This document shows positions 23,630 through 63,878 of a stretch of 64,000 nucleotides of DNA, piece after piece; positions within the stretch are counted from its first letter, which is position 1, and the number at the start of each line of letters is the position of its first letter. Both the position numbers and the translations under genes were made by a program. The notes beneath the pieces were generated by a model. The model had not been told where the DNA came from. It saw only the letters and a list, made by a program, of their open reading frames with translations, and ran no database searches. This DNA is from Clostridia bacterium (GTDB taxonomy: Bacteria > Bacillota > Clostridia > Christensenellales > Aristaeellaceae): positions 1 to 64,000 of the forward strand of contig JAGBFR010000012.1 in NCBI GenBank assembly GCA_017936375.1, written 5' to 3'.

Positions 23630-24409
23630 ATGCAGGCATACAGCTTCTGCGCAGAAACCGTGCGCGACAATCTGATCGCAGCCCTCAAAAAACTTGCGAA
23701 GGAACAGGGATTTACAAAGGTCGTCATCGGTATCTCCGGCGGCAAGGATTCCACCGTCGCGGCGGCGCTGTGCGCCCGCGCGCTGGGCAGGGAGAACGTC
23801 TACGGCGTAATGATGCCCGACGGCGTGCAGCGCGACATCAGCGACAGCGTCCGCGTGTGCGAGGCGCTGGGCATCAACAGCCGCACGATCAATATCGGTC
23901 CCATCCACACCGCGCTGCGCGAGGCGACCGACCAGCTCGCCTGCACGGCGAAGGAGGGCGAATTCGCCATCCCCTATAACCGCGAGAGCGACGTAAACGT
24001 CGGCCCGCGCCTGCGCATGACCACCCTGCGCTACATCGCCCAGAGCCTCGGCGCGCGCCTCGTCGGCACGGGCAATCTGTCCGAATTGACCGTGGGCTAC
24101 TGCACCAAGGACGGCGATACCTCCTGCGACTTCTCGATGTTCGGCAAGATCACCAGCGTCGAGGTCGTCAAGGTGGGCCTTACGATGGAGGAGCTGCCGC
24201 GCGATCTGGTCGAAAAGACCCCGACGGACGGCCTCTCCGGCAAGAGCGACGAGGAGCGCCTCGGCCTGACCTACAGCGATATCCACAAGGTCATCCGCTT
24301 TGGCACCTGCGGCGACGCAGCGACGGACGAGAAGATCCTCAACAAGGAAAAGTGGAACATGCACAAGCGCCGCATGCCCACGATCCTCGATCCCTTCGCC
24401 GCAGAATAA
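23630..24409 (+). CDS. nadE: NH3-dependent NAD+ synthetase
   Basis: A 259-residue enzyme converting nicotinate adenine dinucleotide, ATP and ammonia to NAD+. The PP-loop is GISGGKDS (34-41). Other conserved parts are VGTGNLSELTVGYCTKDGD and EKTPTDGLSGKSDEERLG. The N-terminal glutaminase domain of long NadE proteins is absent, so free ammonia is the expected donor. AAGGATGG precedes the start. pncB follows 38 bp later, making a two-step Preiss-Handler salvage unit in the middle of saccharide genes. Confidence 0.95.
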   Translation: MQAYSFCAETVRDNLIAALKKLAKEQGFTKVVIGISGGKDSTVAAALCARALGRENVYGVMMPDGVQRDISDSVRVCEALGINSRTINIGPIHTALREATDQLACTAKEGEFAIPYNRESDVNVGPRLRMTTLRYIAQSLGARLVGTGNLSELTVGYCTKDGDTSCDFSMFGKITSVEVVKVGLTMEELPRDLVEKTPTDGLSGKSDEERLGLTYSDIHKVIRFGTCGDAATDEKILNKEKWNMHKRRMPTILDPFAAE

Positions 24410-24447
24410 GCGCAGGCTCAAGCATCACCCTCAAGGAGGACATTCAA

Positions 24448-25644
24448 ATGAAACTCGATCCGATCATCGTCTCCCTGCTGGATACGGACCTGTATAAATT
24501 CAACATGGATCAGGTCATCTTCCACAAGCACACGGACCTGTGCGGCGAATACTACTTCCGTTGCCGCAACGAGGACGTCGTCTTCACCCGGGAGATGTTC
24601 GACGAAATCAACGCTCAGATCGATTACCTCTGCCGCCTCAAGTTCACGAAGGAGGAGCTTGACTACCTGCGCTCCATCCGCTTCATCAAGCACGACTATG
24701 TGGAGTTCCTGCGCCTGTGGCGTCCCATCCGCGACTATGTGACGACCTCTCTCTCCGAGGATGGAAAGCTCTGCATCGTCGTCAGCGGCCCGCTCTTCTC
24801 CGCCATGCAGTTTGAAATCTATCTGCTGGAGATTGTCAATGAGGTCTACTTCCGTATGAAGTATGACTATGAAGCCCTTCGCGCCGCGGCGACCGAGCGC
24901 CTCAACGCCAAGATCGCGGACTTCAAGTCCGGCAAGTACACCTTCAAGTTCGCCGAATTCGGCTGCCGCCGCCGCCTCTCCCGCGAATGGCAGGACGTCG
25001 TCGTCCGCCGCCTCGTGCAGGAGACGGGCCACTGCATGGGCACCTCCAACGTGTCCCTCGCCATGAAATACGGCATCAAGCCCATCGGCACCTATGCGCA
25101 TGAATTCGTGCAGATGTATCAAGGCATCGACTCCATCCCGCTCGCCTATACCAACCACTACGCGTTGGAGGACTGGTACAACGAGTACAAGGGCGACAAC
25201 GGCACCGCGCTGACGGATACCATCACCACCGACCTCTTCCTCATGGACTTCAACCGCTCGATGGTCAATAACTTCTCCGGTGTGCGCCACGACAGCGGCG
25301 ATCCCTTCGAGTGGGGCGAAAAGATGATCGCGCACTACGAGCGTTACGGCGCGGACCCGCGCACCAAGCAGCTGCTCTTCTCCGACAGCCTCGACTTTGA
25401 CCGCGCGCAGGCACTCTACGATCACTTCCACGACCGGGCGAAGGTCACCTTCGGCATCGGCACCTACTGCTCCAACGACACCTGCGAAAAGCCGCTCAAT
25501 ATCGTCATCAAGCTTCAAACGGTCAACGGGCGCGCCGTCGCCAAGCTGTCCGACACCCCCGGCAAGGCCATGTGCCGCGACGAGGAATACCTCGAATACC
25601 TGCGCCGCTCGGTCAATTTCCGCCTCAAGCGCGAGCACGACTGA
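24448..25644 (+). CDS. pncB: Nicotinate phosphoribosyltransferase
   Basis: A 398-residue enzyme making nicotinate mononucleotide from nicotinate and PRPP, the entry step of NAD salvage. LLDTDLYKFNMDQ at the N-terminus, GTYAHEFVQMYQG and GVRHDSGDPFEWGEKMIAHYE-type motif in the C-terminal half are the family marks; the length matches the ~400-residue PncB class. AAGGAGGA lies 7 bases before the ATG at 24448. It is co-transcribed with nadE, while the middle enzyme of the pathway is encoded 37 kb away in fused form at 61238. Confidence 0.93.
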   Translation: MKLDPIIVSLLDTDLYKFNMDQVIFHKHTDLCGEYYFRCRNEDVVFTREMFDEINAQIDYLCRLKFTKEELDYLRSIRFIKHDYVEFLRLWRPIRDYVTTSLSEDGKLCIVVSGPLFSAMQFEIYLLEIVNEVYFRMKYDYEALRAAATERLNAKIADFKSGKYTFKFAEFGCRRRLSREWQDVVVRRLVQETGHCMGTSNVSLAMKYGIKPIGTYAHEFVQMYQGIDSIPLAYTNHYALEDWYNEYKGDNGTALTDTITTDLFLMDFNRSMVNNFSGVRHDSGDPFEWGEKMIAHYERYGADPRTKQLLFSDSLDFDRAQALYDHFHDRAKVTFGIGTYCSNDTCEKPLNIVIKLQTVNGRAVAKLSDTPGKAMCRDEEYLEYLRRSVNFRLKREHD

Positions 25645-58190: not shown

Positions 58191-58868
58191 ATGCACATCA
58201 TCGCCCGCATCAAAAGCGATTTCAAAGAGAAATTCGGCATTCCCCGCCAGAGCGGCCTTGTGCCGCAGCTGACCTCCCGCATTGTATTTGAGCGCGCGTA
58301 CCGCAATGCCGACGCGCTGCGCGGGATCGAGGGATTTTCCCATCTGTGGCTGATCTGGGAATTTTCCGAGGCAAAGCGCGACACGTGGTCGCCCACGGTG
58401 CGCCCTCCGCGCCTTGGCGGCAATACGCGCATGGGCGTCTTTGCCACGCGCTCGCCCTTTAGGCCCAATCCCATCGGCCTGTCCTGCGTGGAGCTTGTGC
58501 GGGTGGAATGGGACGCGCCGGACGGCCCGGCGATCATCGTCGGCGGCGCGGATCTGATGGACGGCACGCCGATTTATGACATCAAGCCTTACCTGCCGTA
58601 TGTGGACAGCCATCCCGAGGCAAGGGGAGGCTTTGGCTCCGAGCGGGCGGGCTATGGGCTTGAGGTGGTCTTCCCCGAGGCGCTGGCCGCGCAGATTCCG
58701 GAGAACAAGATCGAGGGCCTTCGCGGCGTGCTTGCGGGCGATCCGCGCCCTTCCTATCAGGAGGATCCGCAGCGCGTATACGGCGTGTCCTTCGCCGGGA
58801 AGAATGTGACCTTCACCGTGTCGGACGGTGTACTGACTGTCACGGGCGTCAAGGACGAGGAGCCGTAA
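58191..58868 (+). CDS. trmO: tRNA (adenine-N6)-methyltransferase TrmO/TsaA family
   Basis: A 225-residue protein of the TsaA/UPF0066 family. TrmO N6-methylates the threonylcarbamoyl adenosine (t6A) next to the anticodon of some tRNAs. Markers: IEGFSHLWLIWEF, GNTRMGVFATRSPFRPNPIGLS-type SAM-binding motif around residues 82-103, and DLMDGTPIYDIKPYLPY. The C-terminal extension is of usual length for the family. GGAG precedes the start. Single-gene unit between terminators. Confidence 0.9.
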   Translation: MHIIARIKSDFKEKFGIPRQSGLVPQLTSRIVFERAYRNADALRGIEGFSHLWLIWEFSEAKRDTWSPTVRPPRLGGNTRMGVFATRSPFRPNPIGLSCVELVRVEWDAPDGPAIIVGGADLMDGTPIYDIKPYLPYVDSHPEARGGFGSERAGYGLEVVFPEALAAQIPENKIEGLRGVLAGDPRPSYQEDPQRVYGVSFAGKNVTFTVSDGVLTVTGVKDEEP

Positions 58869-59977: not shown

Positions 59978-60886
59978 TTATTCCTTGTCAAACTGCAGGG
60001 TGATGCTCTCGCCGTCCGCAGCGGCCAGCGTGCCGGGGAAGATCTCGCGAAGCGCCTCTTCGTATTCAGCGGGATCGGATGTGGCGGGGCTGTAATGCGT
60101 CAGCCACAGGCGGCGCGCGCCCGTCTCTGCGGCGATGGCCGCCGCCTCCTGCATCATCATGTGGTGCGTGTATTCCGCGCGAGCCTGCTTTTCCTCCTCG
60201 CCGTACATGCCCTCAAGGATCATCAGATCGGCCTCTTTGCCATATTCGGCGATGGCGGGCACGGGCCTTGTGTCCGTGGCATAGAGCACGCTCAGGCCGC
60301 GCCGGGGCGCGCCGAGAACGTCCTCGGGCGTGTAGCCGTCGATGCTTTCGCCCTTCTGCAGGCGGCTCCAGAGCGGCTGCGGGATGCCGAGCGCCTTCGC
60401 CTTGCGGGCGTCAAATTTGCCGGGGCGCTTCAATTCCATCCTGTAGCCCAGGCAGGGGATGGTGTGATCGACGGGGAAGACGGTCACCTCAAGCCCCGCC
60501 AGCGGGAACTGCGCCGCATTGAGCGTCTCCGGGTCGTATTCGTGGTAGACGATCTCATAGGGCAGCTCCGGCACGATCGCGCGAAGCGATGTGACGGTGC
60601 TTTCAAGGCCAGCCGGGCCGAACATGTGCAGCGGGCCGGTGCGGTCCTCATTGCCCAGGGTCAGGAGCAGGCCGGGCAGGCCGCTGATGTGGTCGGCATG
60701 GAAATGGGTGATCAGGATGCCTTCGATATTCTTAAAGCGAAGGCCGCTCCTGCGGATGGCGGTCTGCGTGCCCTCACCGCAGTCGATGAGCAGCGCCTGT
60801 GCGCCGCAGCGGACGTAGAGCGAGGTCAGGCTTCGCTCGGGAAGGGGCAGCATGCCGCCCGTGCCAAGAAGGGTGATATCCATCAT
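59978..60886 (-). CDS. rnz: Ribonuclease Z
   Basis: A 302-residue tRNA 3'-processing endonuclease of the MBL fold. ITLLGTGGMLPLPERSLTS opens the protein, ILITHFHADHISGLPG carries the HxHxDH zinc motif, LYATDTRPV the next metal Asp, and LWLTHYSP the final His. It removes 3' trailers from tRNA precursors. GGAGG lies 9 bases before the ATG at 60886; a longer reading frame upstream has no start signal. Confidence 0.93.
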   Translation of the reverse strand: MMDITLLGTGGMLPLPERSLTSLYVRCGAQALLIDCGEGTQTAIRRSGLRFKNIEGILITHFHADHISGLPGLLLTLGNEDRTGPLHMFGPAGLESTVTSLRAIVPELPYEIVYHEYDPETLNAAQFPLAGLEVTVFPVDHTIPCLGYRMELKRPGKFDARKAKALGIPQPLWSRLQKGESIDGYTPEDVLGAPRRGLSVLYATDTRPVPAIAEYGKEADLMILEGMYGEEEKQARAEYTHHMMMQEAAAIAAETGARRLWLTHYSPATSDPAEYEEALREIFPGTLAAADGESITLQFDKE

Positions 60887-61144: not shown

Positions 61145-61237
61145 AACAGAAAACACAGATTTCTCTACCGGCAGGATAGTGCGCATCCGCCGGGAAGCGT
61201 ATAATGGCGTCATCCAATCAAGAAAGGAGGACAAAAG

Positions 61238-62290
61238 GTGGAAGTATGTAAAGGGCGCATCGTCGTCATGGGCGGCTCATTCAACCCGCCGACGCTGGCG
61301 CACCTTCAATTGCTTGAGCAGGCGGTCGAGGCCTCCGGCGCGCGGCTTGGCATTTTCGTCCCGGTGAGCGACGCCTATCTGACGCGCAAGATGCGCCGCA
61401 GCGGCGGCAGGCAGCTCCGCCTGAGCGAGATGCAGCGCTATCGCATGCTCTGCGCCATGTGCGCGGATTATCCGCAATTGACGGTCTCCCCTGTGGAATT
61501 TGGCACCGTCCGCGCGCAGACGCGCGAGACGATGGCGCAGCTGGCGGATCAGTATCCGCAGGACGAGATCTTCTTCCTCATCGGGGCGGATAAGCTCGGC
61601 ATGGTCGCCGGCTGGTTTGAGCATCCGGAGCGGATTCCGCCCTTCTGCCTGCTGGTTGTCTGCCGCGATGGGATCGACGCCAAGGCCTTTATCGCCTCCG
61701 ATCCGCGCACATCGGCGTACACAGATCGATTCCTCATCCTGAATATCGGCGAGGGGATGGAAACAGTCAGCTCCACCCGCGTGCGCGCCTGCATGGAGGA
61801 GGGGACGCCTCTTGATGATCTTGTGCACCCGTCTGTTGCACGGATGCTTGAGGGGATGGAGGATGCGTTCTTTGAGGAGATCACGCGCTTTAAGGATGAA
61901 TATGCCTTCCTCGCGCTCTCTTTCCCGTCTCCGGTTGAATATGAGGGTGTGGTCTATCCCAGCGCGGAGGCGGCGCTCTATGCCGCGCGCTGCGCAGAGG
62001 AAAGCGACAGGGCGAGATTTCTGCGAGGGACAAATCCAGCGGCGACCGCCGCGAAATGCACGCCGCGTGCGGACTGGGCAGAGATTCACAGAGATGTGCT
62101 GGAGGAGATTGTCCGCGCGAAATTTGAGCAGCATCCCGGGCTCGCAGCGCAGCTGCTCGCCACGGGCGATGCGAGGCTTATCGCCGGAGGCATGAAGGAT
62201 CTGCTCTTCGGCGTGGATTTGTATACCTGCAGGGGGGAGAACCTCCTCGGGCGGGTGCTGATGGCGATCCGAGAAGAAATGAAAGCCTGA
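61238..62290 (+). CDS. NMN adenylyltransferase fused to a NADAR domain
   Basis: A 350-residue fusion, GTG start with AAAGGAGG 7 bases upstream. Residues 1-~205 are a nucleotidyltransferase making NAD or NaAD from the mononucleotide and ATP: GGSFNPPTLAH (12-22), IGADKLGMVAGW and SSTRVR (178-183). The first His of the usual bacterial HxGH is Thr, as in eukaryotic-type NMNATs (TxxH). Residues ~219-347 are a NADAR/YbiA (DUF1768) domain: SFPSPVEYEGVVYPSAE (Glu244), AAKCTPRADW, KFEQHPGLAAQLLATGD and GENLLGRVLMAIRE. NADAR proteins act on ADP-ribosyl or ribosyl-type N-glycosides. The window also encodes PncB and NadE, so all Preiss-Handler steps are here. Confidence 0.88.
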   Translation: MEVCKGRIVVMGGSFNPPTLAHLQLLEQAVEASGARLGIFVPVSDAYLTRKMRRSGGRQLRLSEMQRYRMLCAMCADYPQLTVSPVEFGTVRAQTRETMAQLADQYPQDEIFFLIGADKLGMVAGWFEHPERIPPFCLLVVCRDGIDAKAFIASDPRTSAYTDRFLILNIGEGMETVSSTRVRACMEEGTPLDDLVHPSVARMLEGMEDAFFEEITRFKDEYAFLALSFPSPVEYEGVVYPSAEAALYAARCAEESDRARFLRGTNPAATAAKCTPRADWAEIHRDVLEEIVRAKFEQHPGLAAQLLATGDARLIAGGMKDLLFGVDLYTCRGENLLGRVLMAIREEMKA

Positions 62291-62313
62291 AATAAAGGCA
62301 TGAAAAAGAAAAA

Positions 62314-62342
62314 AGCACGGCTCCCCTTTGGGGAGCCGTGCT
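62314..62342. terminator. Terminator between NMNAT-NADAR and the GT-C gene
   Basis: AGCACGGCTCCCC and GGGGAGCCGTGCT arms, 3-base loop; A-run upstream and T-rich downstream, serving both converging genes. Confidence 0.85.
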
Positions 62343-62345
62343 GCT

Positions 62346-63878
62346 TTATTCATGGATGGATTCGTTTTTCTTCTTTTTGATTTGGAGGAAGCCTGCGTCT
62401 GCCAGCGCCGCCGCGCTGAGCAGAATCATCTCGGCAAAGAAGAAATACCGCGCGCGCGTCTCCCACAGGGTGAGGATGATGAACACGCCGACGAGCGCGA
62501 CGAACAGCGGCGCGGCGTCCGTCCTCTTCCTGCGGATCTGCTGGACGCAGGCGATGCAGGCGATGACCATCTGCGCCATGAACAGCGCCGTGCACAGGTG
62601 CCAGTACGGCCTGAAGAGCGCGCCCTTGGAGAAGATCACCTGCTTGACCGGGTTGTCGGCGACATTCCTGTCCGACTGGATGATCTCATTGAGCGCAAAG
62701 GAGCCCACGCTGAAGGTCGACAGATTCTTTCTGGAGACCATGTGCAGAAGGCGGTTGGGGTAGCGCAGGTAGTACACGCGGTCGATGAACTCGGTGAGCA
62801 GCGCTTCGTCGCGCTCCTTCGGGTTCTCAAAGGAGGTGCTGAAGATCAGCCATCCGCCGTCGCCGTACTGGCCGTAGCCCTCGTCCACCTGCACCGGCAG
62901 GCCCATGACCATGTAGTGCAGCTTGGGCAGCTCGTTCTTTTCGATGGCTTCCTTGGGCAGATGGGTGTAGGTGTAGGCGTCCATCGCCGCGCCGCCCGCC
63001 GTGAAGACCACAGCCATTGCCGCCGCGCAGCAGGCAAGCTGCCGCCATCTGCGCTCAAAGAGCAGCCAGATGACGCCCGCAATCGCCGCGATGACGACGG
63101 TAAAGCGGATCTGCGCGCCGATAAAGGCGGCCAGCGCGGCAAGCAGCGCAAAGCCCGCGCGCGCCCGCACTGTCTCCGCCTCGCGCAGGCGGAAGAGCAG
63201 GTAGATGACGATCATCGGGAATGCGGCGGAGAAGACGTCGGTATACAGTTCGCTCGTGCAGTAGAGGAAGGGCAGGCACGAGGCAAAGAGCAGCAGCAGC
63301 TTCGCCTGTGCGCGCACGCCTCCCAGCCTGCGGCACACGCGTGCGCTGCACAGCAGCCCCAGCGTGAAGAACAGCCCGGCGACGAGCGCCGCCTGCATGA
63401 ACCGGTCGCCCCAGCCGATGAGGCCGAAGAGCTTAAAGACCCCGGCGAGCAGGTAGACAAAGCCCAGATTGTGCGGATAGCGGGTGAAATAGATGAACGA
63501 GCGCTCGTTATTCCCGAATGTGCCGGTATCCGCCAGCAGCTGCGCGGCGGTGTAGCACTGCTCCGCATCCGTCCTCGGCTCAAAGCGCAGGGCGGCGGCC
63601 ATCACAAGCTGCACGACGAAATAGAAGAGCGCGGCGATGACGAGCATCTTCTTTTCATGCCGGAGGAGGAAATCCTCCCGCCGGTCGATGACCCGCATGG
63701 CGGCAAGCAGCGCCGCCGTGCACAGCGGCGTGAGGATCACAAGCGCAAGCTGATTGCGCTTATAGAGCGGCCACGGGGACAGGAGCACATTGCCCACGGT
63801 GAAGAGGTAGCACGGGATCATCAGCCCCATGCCCAGCAGCAGAAGCCGCCGCAGCCAGATCGGGATTCGCTTGGTCAT
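62346..63878 (-). CDS. GT39/GT-C-like membrane mannosyltransferase
   Basis: A 510-residue polytopic protein with about 11 helices. An extracytoplasmic loop near the N-terminus (RFEPRTDAEQCYTAAQLLAD) followed by FIYFTRYPHNLGFVYLLAG resembles the acidic first loop and following helix of GT-C enzymes of the PMT/ArnT type, which move sugar from a polyprenyl carrier. The basic C-terminus is cytoplasmic. The ATG at 63878 has AAGGGA 6 bases upstream; an ATG at 63902 overlaps the previous stop (TGATG) and could be the coupled start instead. Confidence 0.75.
   Translation of the reverse strand: MTKRIPIWLRRLLLLGMGLMIPCYLFTVGNVLLSPWPLYKRNQLALVILTPLCTAALLAAMRVIDRREDFLLRHEKKMLVIAALFYFVVQLVMAAALRFEPRTDAEQCYTAAQLLADTGTFGNNERSFIYFTRYPHNLGFVYLLAGVFKLFGLIGWGDRFMQAALVAGLFFTLGLLCSARVCRRLGGVRAQAKLLLLFASCLPFLYCTSELYTDVFSAAFPMIVIYLLFRLREAETVRARAGFALLAALAAFIGAQIRFTVVIAAIAGVIWLLFERRWRQLACCAAAMAVVFTAGGAAMDAYTYTHLPKEAIEKNELPKLHYMVMGLPVQVDEGYGQYGDGGWLIFSTSFENPKERDEALLTEFIDRVYYLRYPNRLLHMVSRKNLSTFSVGSFALNEIIQSDRNVADNPVKQVIFSKGALFRPYWHLCTALFMAQMVIACIACVQQIRRKRTDAAPLFVALVGVFIILTLWETRARYFFFAEMILLSAAALADAGFLQIKKKKNESIHE

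Follow-up and report, generated by a model that had tools for sequence, protein, structure and literature searches.

NMNAT-NADAR fusions are a patchy family of the Clostridia, and the genomic evidence points to a link between this family and NAD-linked RNA repair rather than NAD-nucleotide damage control. The member studied here, P0001, is encoded in a 64,000-nucleotide stretch of DNA that was analysed as a whole (the window), and its own genome (G000) consists of 2.85 Mb on 75 contigs and is about 81% complete. We give an even chance to the reading that P0001 is an accessory NMN/NaMN adenylyltransferase whose NADAR domain is dead in catalysis and retained for binding, and which acts in a network of NAD synthesis, ADP-ribose removal and RNA repair. 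The fusion reported in the preliminary description of this DNA is real; it recurs in the Clostridia and coexists with a separate NadD. The active NADAR half assumed in that description is not borne out for P0001.

The fusion gene and its two halves

P0001 is a single unbroken frame of 350 codons with a GTG start, a good ribosome-binding site and a TGA stop (Table 1). Both halves score above their Pfam cut-offs and lie in one frame in the assembly rather than in separate genes, and the motifs quoted earlier (GGSFNPPTLAH, SSTRVR, Glu244, TGD at residues 309-311 and GENLLG) were found where they had been placed. An alternative start at 61268 is favoured by a codon-score gene caller; this score, used for gene calls in GC-rich loci, is a simple one trained on eight genes of G000, seven of them from the window. 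Both an orthologue of the same architecture (60% identity) on contig C16 of G005, a second genome from the genus, and the 29 tabulated fusions described below speak against a chimera or chance frame, which we rejected as unlikely.

Table 1. Features of P0001 and of its surroundings in the window; the last three rows are given for context only.
Feature	Position	Strand	Basis
NMNAT-NADAR fusion gene P0001, 350 aa	61238..62290	+	Reading frame, Pfam; 60%-identity orthologue in G005
NMNAT/NadD-like half	61238..61861	+	PF01467 above cut-off; TIGR00482 below cut-off; alignment A4
NADAR half, probable pseudo-hydrolase	61913..62281	+	PF08719, 66.1 bits; residue table; residue roles per PMC11543638
Shine-Dalgarno-like AGGAGG	61225..61230	+	7 bases 5' of the P0001 GTG; from sequence
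Hairpin in the gap between P0001 and the convergent gene	~62309..62347		-28.7 kcal/mol; sequence and fold
RNase Z, divergent neighbour	59978..60886	-	NF000801, 337 bits, cut-off 252; synteny with L035
NAD synthase nadE	23630..24409	+	TIGR00552, 156 bits, cut-off 63.65
Nicotinate phosphoribosyltransferase pncB, adjoins nadE	24448..25644	+	NF003704, 497 bits, cut-off 379

P0001 is flanked by one divergent and one convergent gene. The hairpin between P0001 and the convergent gene may be a terminator common to the two; of its T-runs, the one that suits the minus-strand gene is the better. RNase Z is divergent to the G005 orthologue as well (locus L035). In G005, the RNase Z-fusion pair adjoins genes that in the window sit just past pncB, and therefore a rearrangement separates the two genomes here. 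The nadE and pncB genes (23630-25644 in the window) stand side by side about 36 kb from P0001. A gene for TrmO, a tRNA methyltransferase (58191-58868 in the window), lies 2.4 kb from P0001 and near RNase Z; TrmO and RNase Z are perhaps coincidental tRNA-related neighbours.

The first half of the protein matches PF01467 (CTP_transf_like) at residues 10-183 with 33.9 bits against a cut-off of 21. Its motifs are GGSFNPPTLAH (residues 12-22), Y-x3-K, GADK...W and VSSTRVR (177-183); the nucleotidyltransferase motifs GxFxPxxxxH and SSTxxR are thus present, and the positions that are invariant across the 21 sequences of alignment A4 are kept. A solved NadD is matched by the NMNAT-half profile with an E value of 1.6e-17. 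TIGR00482, the NadD equivalog, gives 91.8 bits, which is below its cut-off of 112.45, and so NMNAT/NadD-like is the safe name for this half. An ordinary NadD is also present in G000, on contig C13, where TIGR00482 gives 165.5 bits and is above the cut-off; P0001 is therefore an accessory copy. The NMNAT half of P0001 is probably active.

The second half has a significant match to the NADAR profile (PF08719, residues 226-348, 66.1 bits against a cut-off of 35.1). For NADAR catalysis we rely on passages of Schuller et al. (PMC11543638), in which the catalytic residues of the E. coli C7 NADAR are E88, K95 and D171 and in which E43 and E125 of the P. nicotianae NADAR structure sit at the distal ribose, while K50 sits at the pyrophosphates. 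According to the same passages, changing D171 of C7, the structural equivalent of E125, to Ala or Asn abolishes efficient activity. The catalytic set Glu43/Lys50/Glu125 is given here in P. nicotianae numbering, with Lys50 mapped from C7 K95 by spacing. In P0001 the first Glu is kept as Glu244, Lys is replaced by Arg251, the second Glu by Ala316 and a Trp by Phe324; D321 and GENLLG are also retained. The active-hydrolase set is therefore incomplete, with two of the three catalytic positions substituted, which leaves an active NADAR half unsupported in P0001, and both substitutions, Arg and Ala, recur in the G005 orthologue. We conclude that the NADAR half of P0001 is probably a pseudo-hydrolase that has lost catalysis and that most likely it binds ADP-ribose or a partner protein.

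Compared with its G005 orthologue, P0001 has an NG86 dN/dS of about 0.29 in the NADAR half and 0.35 in the NMNAT half. By this measure the half taken to be dead is no less constrained than the live one, though its identity is slightly lower (57% compared with 61%). These values bear on another explanation, that P0001 is a spare NadD of ordinary NAD synthesis, that its NADAR half is a functionless relic and that any link to repair belongs to other members of the family. We regard this as unlikely, as a normal NadD is already present in the genome, the NADAR half has stayed open-framed and under purifying selection with Glu244, D321 and GENLLG in place, and in the tree a long branch (1.63 + 0.66) separates the NMNAT family from four housekeeping NadDs. 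However, the position of P0001 between a divergent and a convergent gene with no repair genes beside it would suit a spare NadD, as would the presence of pncB and nadE in the same window and the existence of related NMNAT genes that have no NADAR half, in G018 and G021.

Distribution of the family and its paralogues

Of the 308 genomes of the host's family, 17 have both halves together according to a profile built from five fusions. Among 395 sampled genomes of the order, five match at 1e-40, and of these only G000 has both halves. A wider scan of genome contigs gave 62 loci, 18 of which span both halves, three of these being frame-split. The 18 come from Lachnospiraceae, Oscillospiraceae, other Clostridia and one Synergistales MAG; L105, which is frame-split, is titled Prevotella. 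Named isolates with the fusion are Lachnoclostridium An131 and An138 and Pseudoflavonifractor phocaeensis An569.

The residue table comprises 29 fusions that have both halves in one frame, the split loci L102, L105 and L116, and the two NMNAT-only genes of G018 and G021. Duplicates of G-genome loci (L090, L095, L096, L097, L101, L103 and L104) were dropped before tabulation; An131 and An138, which are near-identical, contribute two fusions each to the 29, and the one from G217 is cut by a contig end. The motifs GGS[FY][NH]PPTxAH and [IV]SSxxxR are retained in 26 of the 29. Of the 29, 21 keep and eight lack the Glu that corresponds to P. nicotianae E125, which is missing from the frame-split L105 as well. 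In the NADAR tree, pocket loss is limited to a single clade (99/99) formed by the Glu-less NADARs; a multiple origin of the Glu-less fusions was dropped for this reason. In the NMNAT tree the Glu-less group does not form one clade: it encloses the unfused G018 gene, and the P0001 pair has no firm position. In the sister clade that has adjacent NADARs, the Trp of GADxxxxLxxW is gone in all eight NMNAT halves (G173, G223, G105, G306, G308, G309, L105 and G018), and so the NMNAT substrate there may differ; P0001 retains the Trp.

Some relatives have more elaborate architectures. For example, an 808-aa Lachnospiraceae protein (L089:4639-7065, + strand) is the most elaborate version of the fusion seen, with leucine-rich repeats and a phage gp30.3-type domain in front of NMNAT-like and NADAR domains. 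Lachnoclostridium An131 has a triple fusion of ADP-ribosylglycohydrolase, NMNAT and NADAR (L092:6244-8418, + strand) in the same run as a second NMNAT-NADAR. G009 encodes an ADP-ribosylglycohydrolase-NADAR fusion and a NADAR-macrodomain fusion (L037:12411-13877 and L038:9017-10222), and an Oscillospiraceae protein (L115:5965-6963) is a NADAR-macro fusion by Pfam; about 12 loci between L109 and L134 with NADAR in frames of 333-395 aa may be NADAR-macro likewise. In G464, which belongs to a different family within the order, a protein related to the NMNAT half (L207:1348-2448, + strand) scores 132 bits with TIGR00482, above the cut-off, and is followed by about 110 residues that have no Pfam or NCBIfam match.

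A phage origin of P0001 was also considered and rejected, since 204 phage records match it and none of the 50,697 does so over 80% of its length. P0001 also matches 16 viral contigs; the single wider match among them (L166) is to a NADAR within a very long phage protein.

G000 has a second fusion, on contig C53, in which the situation is reversed: the NMNAT half has lost its motifs (TDPFYPATLRH, no SSTxxR), whereas the NADAR half retains the catalytic residues. G005 carries the equivalent pair, with the P0001 type on C16 and the C53 type on C15. In both genomes the locus of the second fusion encodes, on the same strand and 5-9 kb away, an HD-polynucleotide kinase (HD-PNK), an RNA ligase and a SIR2 protein; in G000 the HD-PNK and RNA ligase genes are at a distance of 5-8 kb. 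The first of these proteins combines HD with a P-loop kinase, and the kinase portion matches T4 polynucleotide kinase (E 1e-4). The Pfam RNA_ligase match was shown for the L092 relative of the ligase; the C53 copy itself has no PDB match. In both genomes a DUF3793 protein (L034:15187-15744 and L036:3923-4513; 183 bits for the L034 copy) is encoded next to the HD-PNK, on the other strand.

A stand-alone intact NADAR is also present in G000, on contig C42. Genes of this kind, with the full E/K/E set, lie directly 3' of seven of the eight assessable Glu-less fusions and of none of the 20 Glu-keeping ones (Fisher p 7e-6); as the Glu-less fusions group together in the NADAR tree, the pattern amounts to about one evolutionary event. 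The sole exception among the eight is P0001. The count includes the split L105; it leaves out the G005 orthologue, whose contig ends about 0.5 kb further on, the cut G217 gene, and the split L102 and L116, both of them Glu-keeping and without a neighbouring NADAR. The NADAR-less NMNAT gene of G018 also adjoins such a stand-alone NADAR. The C42 NADAR groups with the fusion-adjacent NADARs (100/100) in a tree in which YbiA is the only other stand-alone NADAR.

Association with RNA-repair genes

Mapping by phmmer covered 30 fusion loci of about 6-20 kb, three of them (L035, L093 and L105) with a smaller query set. An RNA ligase is present in eight of the 30 and an HD-PNK in nine, and at least one gene for a ligase, HD-PNK, cassette methyltransferase, KptA, macro, ARH or PARG is present in 16. 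Three loci have an adjacent NADAR only, and 11, including that of P0001, have neither an adjacent NADAR nor any of the queried genes. For P0001 this covers about 20 kb around the gene (L042), in which none of the queried repair genes was found; for the G005 orthologue, none was found with the smaller query set on the 11 kb of its locus. Part of the relatives of P0001 sit among ADP-ribose-processing genes.

Two loci illustrate the arrangement. In L092 the order is NMNAT-NADAR, methyltransferase, RNA ligase, HD-PNK and ARH-NMNAT-NADAR, and in L169 it is NMNAT-NADAR, macro, ARH, an LMWP/2H-like protein, a broken NADAR, KptA and two RlaP. The broken NADAR (L169:4616-4939, - strand, G203) appears to be internally deleted; the fused NADAR of G203 keeps its catalytic residues. 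An identification of the cassette methyltransferase as Hen1 was dropped, as Pfam and NCBIfam give general or distant methyltransferase matches only.

Co-occurrence across the 308 genomes of the family displays the same tendency. An RNA ligase is present in 11 of the 17 fusion genomes and 26 of the 291 others, KptA in 12 of the 17 and 23 of the 291, and both together in 10 of the 17 and four of the 291 (G018 among the four), with p 1e-11 in a test that ignores phylogeny and on genomes that are incomplete. The control, Cas1, is present in three of the 17 and 73 of the 291 (p 0.77). Among the genomes counted, one for KptA and two for Cas1 score below the curated cut-offs, and one ligase match is partial. 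At the genus level, the one count that takes phylogeny into account, six of 50 genera have the fusion and all six hold a ligase somewhere (p 5e-4). G000 itself holds KptA (C47) and, on C53, the RNA ligase and HD-PNK; the neighbourhoods of its C47 KptA and C42 NADAR contained nothing telling.

The association bears on two other readings of the family. The first is that the fusions carry out quality control of NAD-like nucleotides, the NMNAT half making dinucleotides and an active NADAR half or partner hydrolyzing alpha-anomers, hydrated forms or non-nicotinamide ribosides. YbiA cleaves reactive riboflavin intermediates (passages of PMC11543638), the base-ADP-ribose made by an NMNAT should have the general form of a NADAR substrate, and the NADAR catalytic Glu is, as noted above, kept in most of the fusions. 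However, this reading leaves the association with RNA ligase, HD-PNK and KptA unexplained, and Glu and Lys are both lost in P0001, so we consider it distinctly improbable.

The second is that the loci are anti-phage or toxin-recovery islands, in which, following an attack by NADases, ART toxins or tRNases, the fusions would replenish NAD and remove ADP-ribose, with RNA repair as one arm. Such islands would be consistent with the way NAD synthesis, ADP-ribose hydrolases and RNA repair occur together and with the patchy spread (17 of 308 genomes), and phage NADARs occur near NadM and NadV according to parts of PMC9503650. PADLOC, however, gives the NADAR half just weak matches to PDC-M42C, among the neighbours mapped with the repair and ADP-ribose queries none was recognised as a toxin gene, and as indicated above no phage record matches over 80% of P0001; islands of this type are possible, though we lean against them.

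Proposed role and relation to known systems

Returning to the reading in which P0001 is an accessory adenylyltransferase with a binding NADAR domain, and starting from the observed architecture, residue losses, paralogue, adjacency and co-occurrence, we infer enzymatic activities, a partnership in trans and a role in RNA repair that could fit together as follows. KptA would spend NAD+ in clearing 2'-phosphates from RNA, and nicotinamide is also released in its reaction. The NAD+-dependent removal of RNA 2'-phosphates by KptA, with release of ADP-ribose phosphate, is described in PMC9503650 (section 3.7.3). The ADP-ribose would be removed or processed by NADAR, macro, ARH and PARG domains; according to passages of PMC11543638 and PMC11833690, NADARs strip ADP-ribose from guanine in DNA and RNA. 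Broken RNA would be healed and sealed by RNA ligase, HD-PNK and RlaP, and the dinucleotide would be rebuilt by the NMNAT half, much as NMNATs are termed 'feeders' that replenish NAD+ for ADP-ribosylation pathways in part of a review (PMC10789625). The common fusion would thus have both activities in one chain, so that restocking and ADP-ribose clearance could occur at the site of RNA repair. In the P0001 clade the NADAR activity would be supplied in trans, in G000 by the C53 fusion and/or the C42 NADAR. Restocking alone is likely to be left to P0001, whose NADAR half would serve as a binding or docking domain.

A more specific version of this role, in which P0001 and the C53 fusion are a reciprocal half-dead pair in one hetero-oligomeric machine serving RNA repair, we hold to be very improbable. 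In its bolder form, the live NMNAT would re-adenylylate phosphoribosyl adducts on RNA bases to ADP-ribosyl adducts and the partner NADAR would remove them, which it might do since a NADAR substrate and the NMNAT product are alike in form. That the two paralogues have lost opposite halves is in any case a natural experiment on the role of each half. As the fusion is recurrent, tied to RNA ligase, HD-PNK and KptA, and present in named isolates, the questions about it become testable.

A role of NADAR in RNA repair has already been proposed (PMC9503650), and part of PMC8383183 states that a giant virus encodes NMNAT and NADAR, with no mention there of a fusion. The parts of the literature searched, including those of PMC11125620 and PMC7824862, do not mention an NMNAT-NADAR fusion; an earlier notice of it is possible. 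The family hints at an uncharacterised link between NAD supply and RNA repair.

With E. coli YbiA and the NADAR superfamily (PF08719; structures 2b3w and 8bau), P0001 shares the profile match, the order of motifs, Glu244, TGD and GENLLG, but it differs from them in having an NMNAT-like domain fused and in the absence of the catalytic Lys and Glu and of the Trp. The DarTG1 NADAR antitoxins, as described in passages of PMC11543638, belong to the same superfamily, and reversal of guanine ADP-ribosylation would be possible for the intact relatives of P0001; P0001 itself, unlike these antitoxins, is fused and has no catalytic Glu. The GGSFNPPTxAH, SSTxxR and GADK...W motifs are those of NadD/NMNAT (TIGR00482, PF01467), for which many structures are solved. 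Compared with the NadD of its own genome, however, P0001 has TLAH rather than HLGH, Y-x3-K rather than PPHK, a lower TIGR00482 score (91.8 compared with 165.5 bits) and a NADAR half. In plan it resembles NadM-Nudix and NadR as given in parts of PMC9503650, in which an NMN adenylyltransferase is joined to a second domain related to NAD or ADP-ribose; that domain is NADAR in P0001 rather than Nudix or a kinase, and no homology is claimed for it. Finally, the fusion loci resemble the KptA- or sirtuin-linked RNA-repair neighbourhoods of PMC9503650 (section 3.7.3), which combine RNA ligase, 2H and KptA or sirtuin. The systems described there, however, are from phages and the section names no NMNAT-NADAR fusion.
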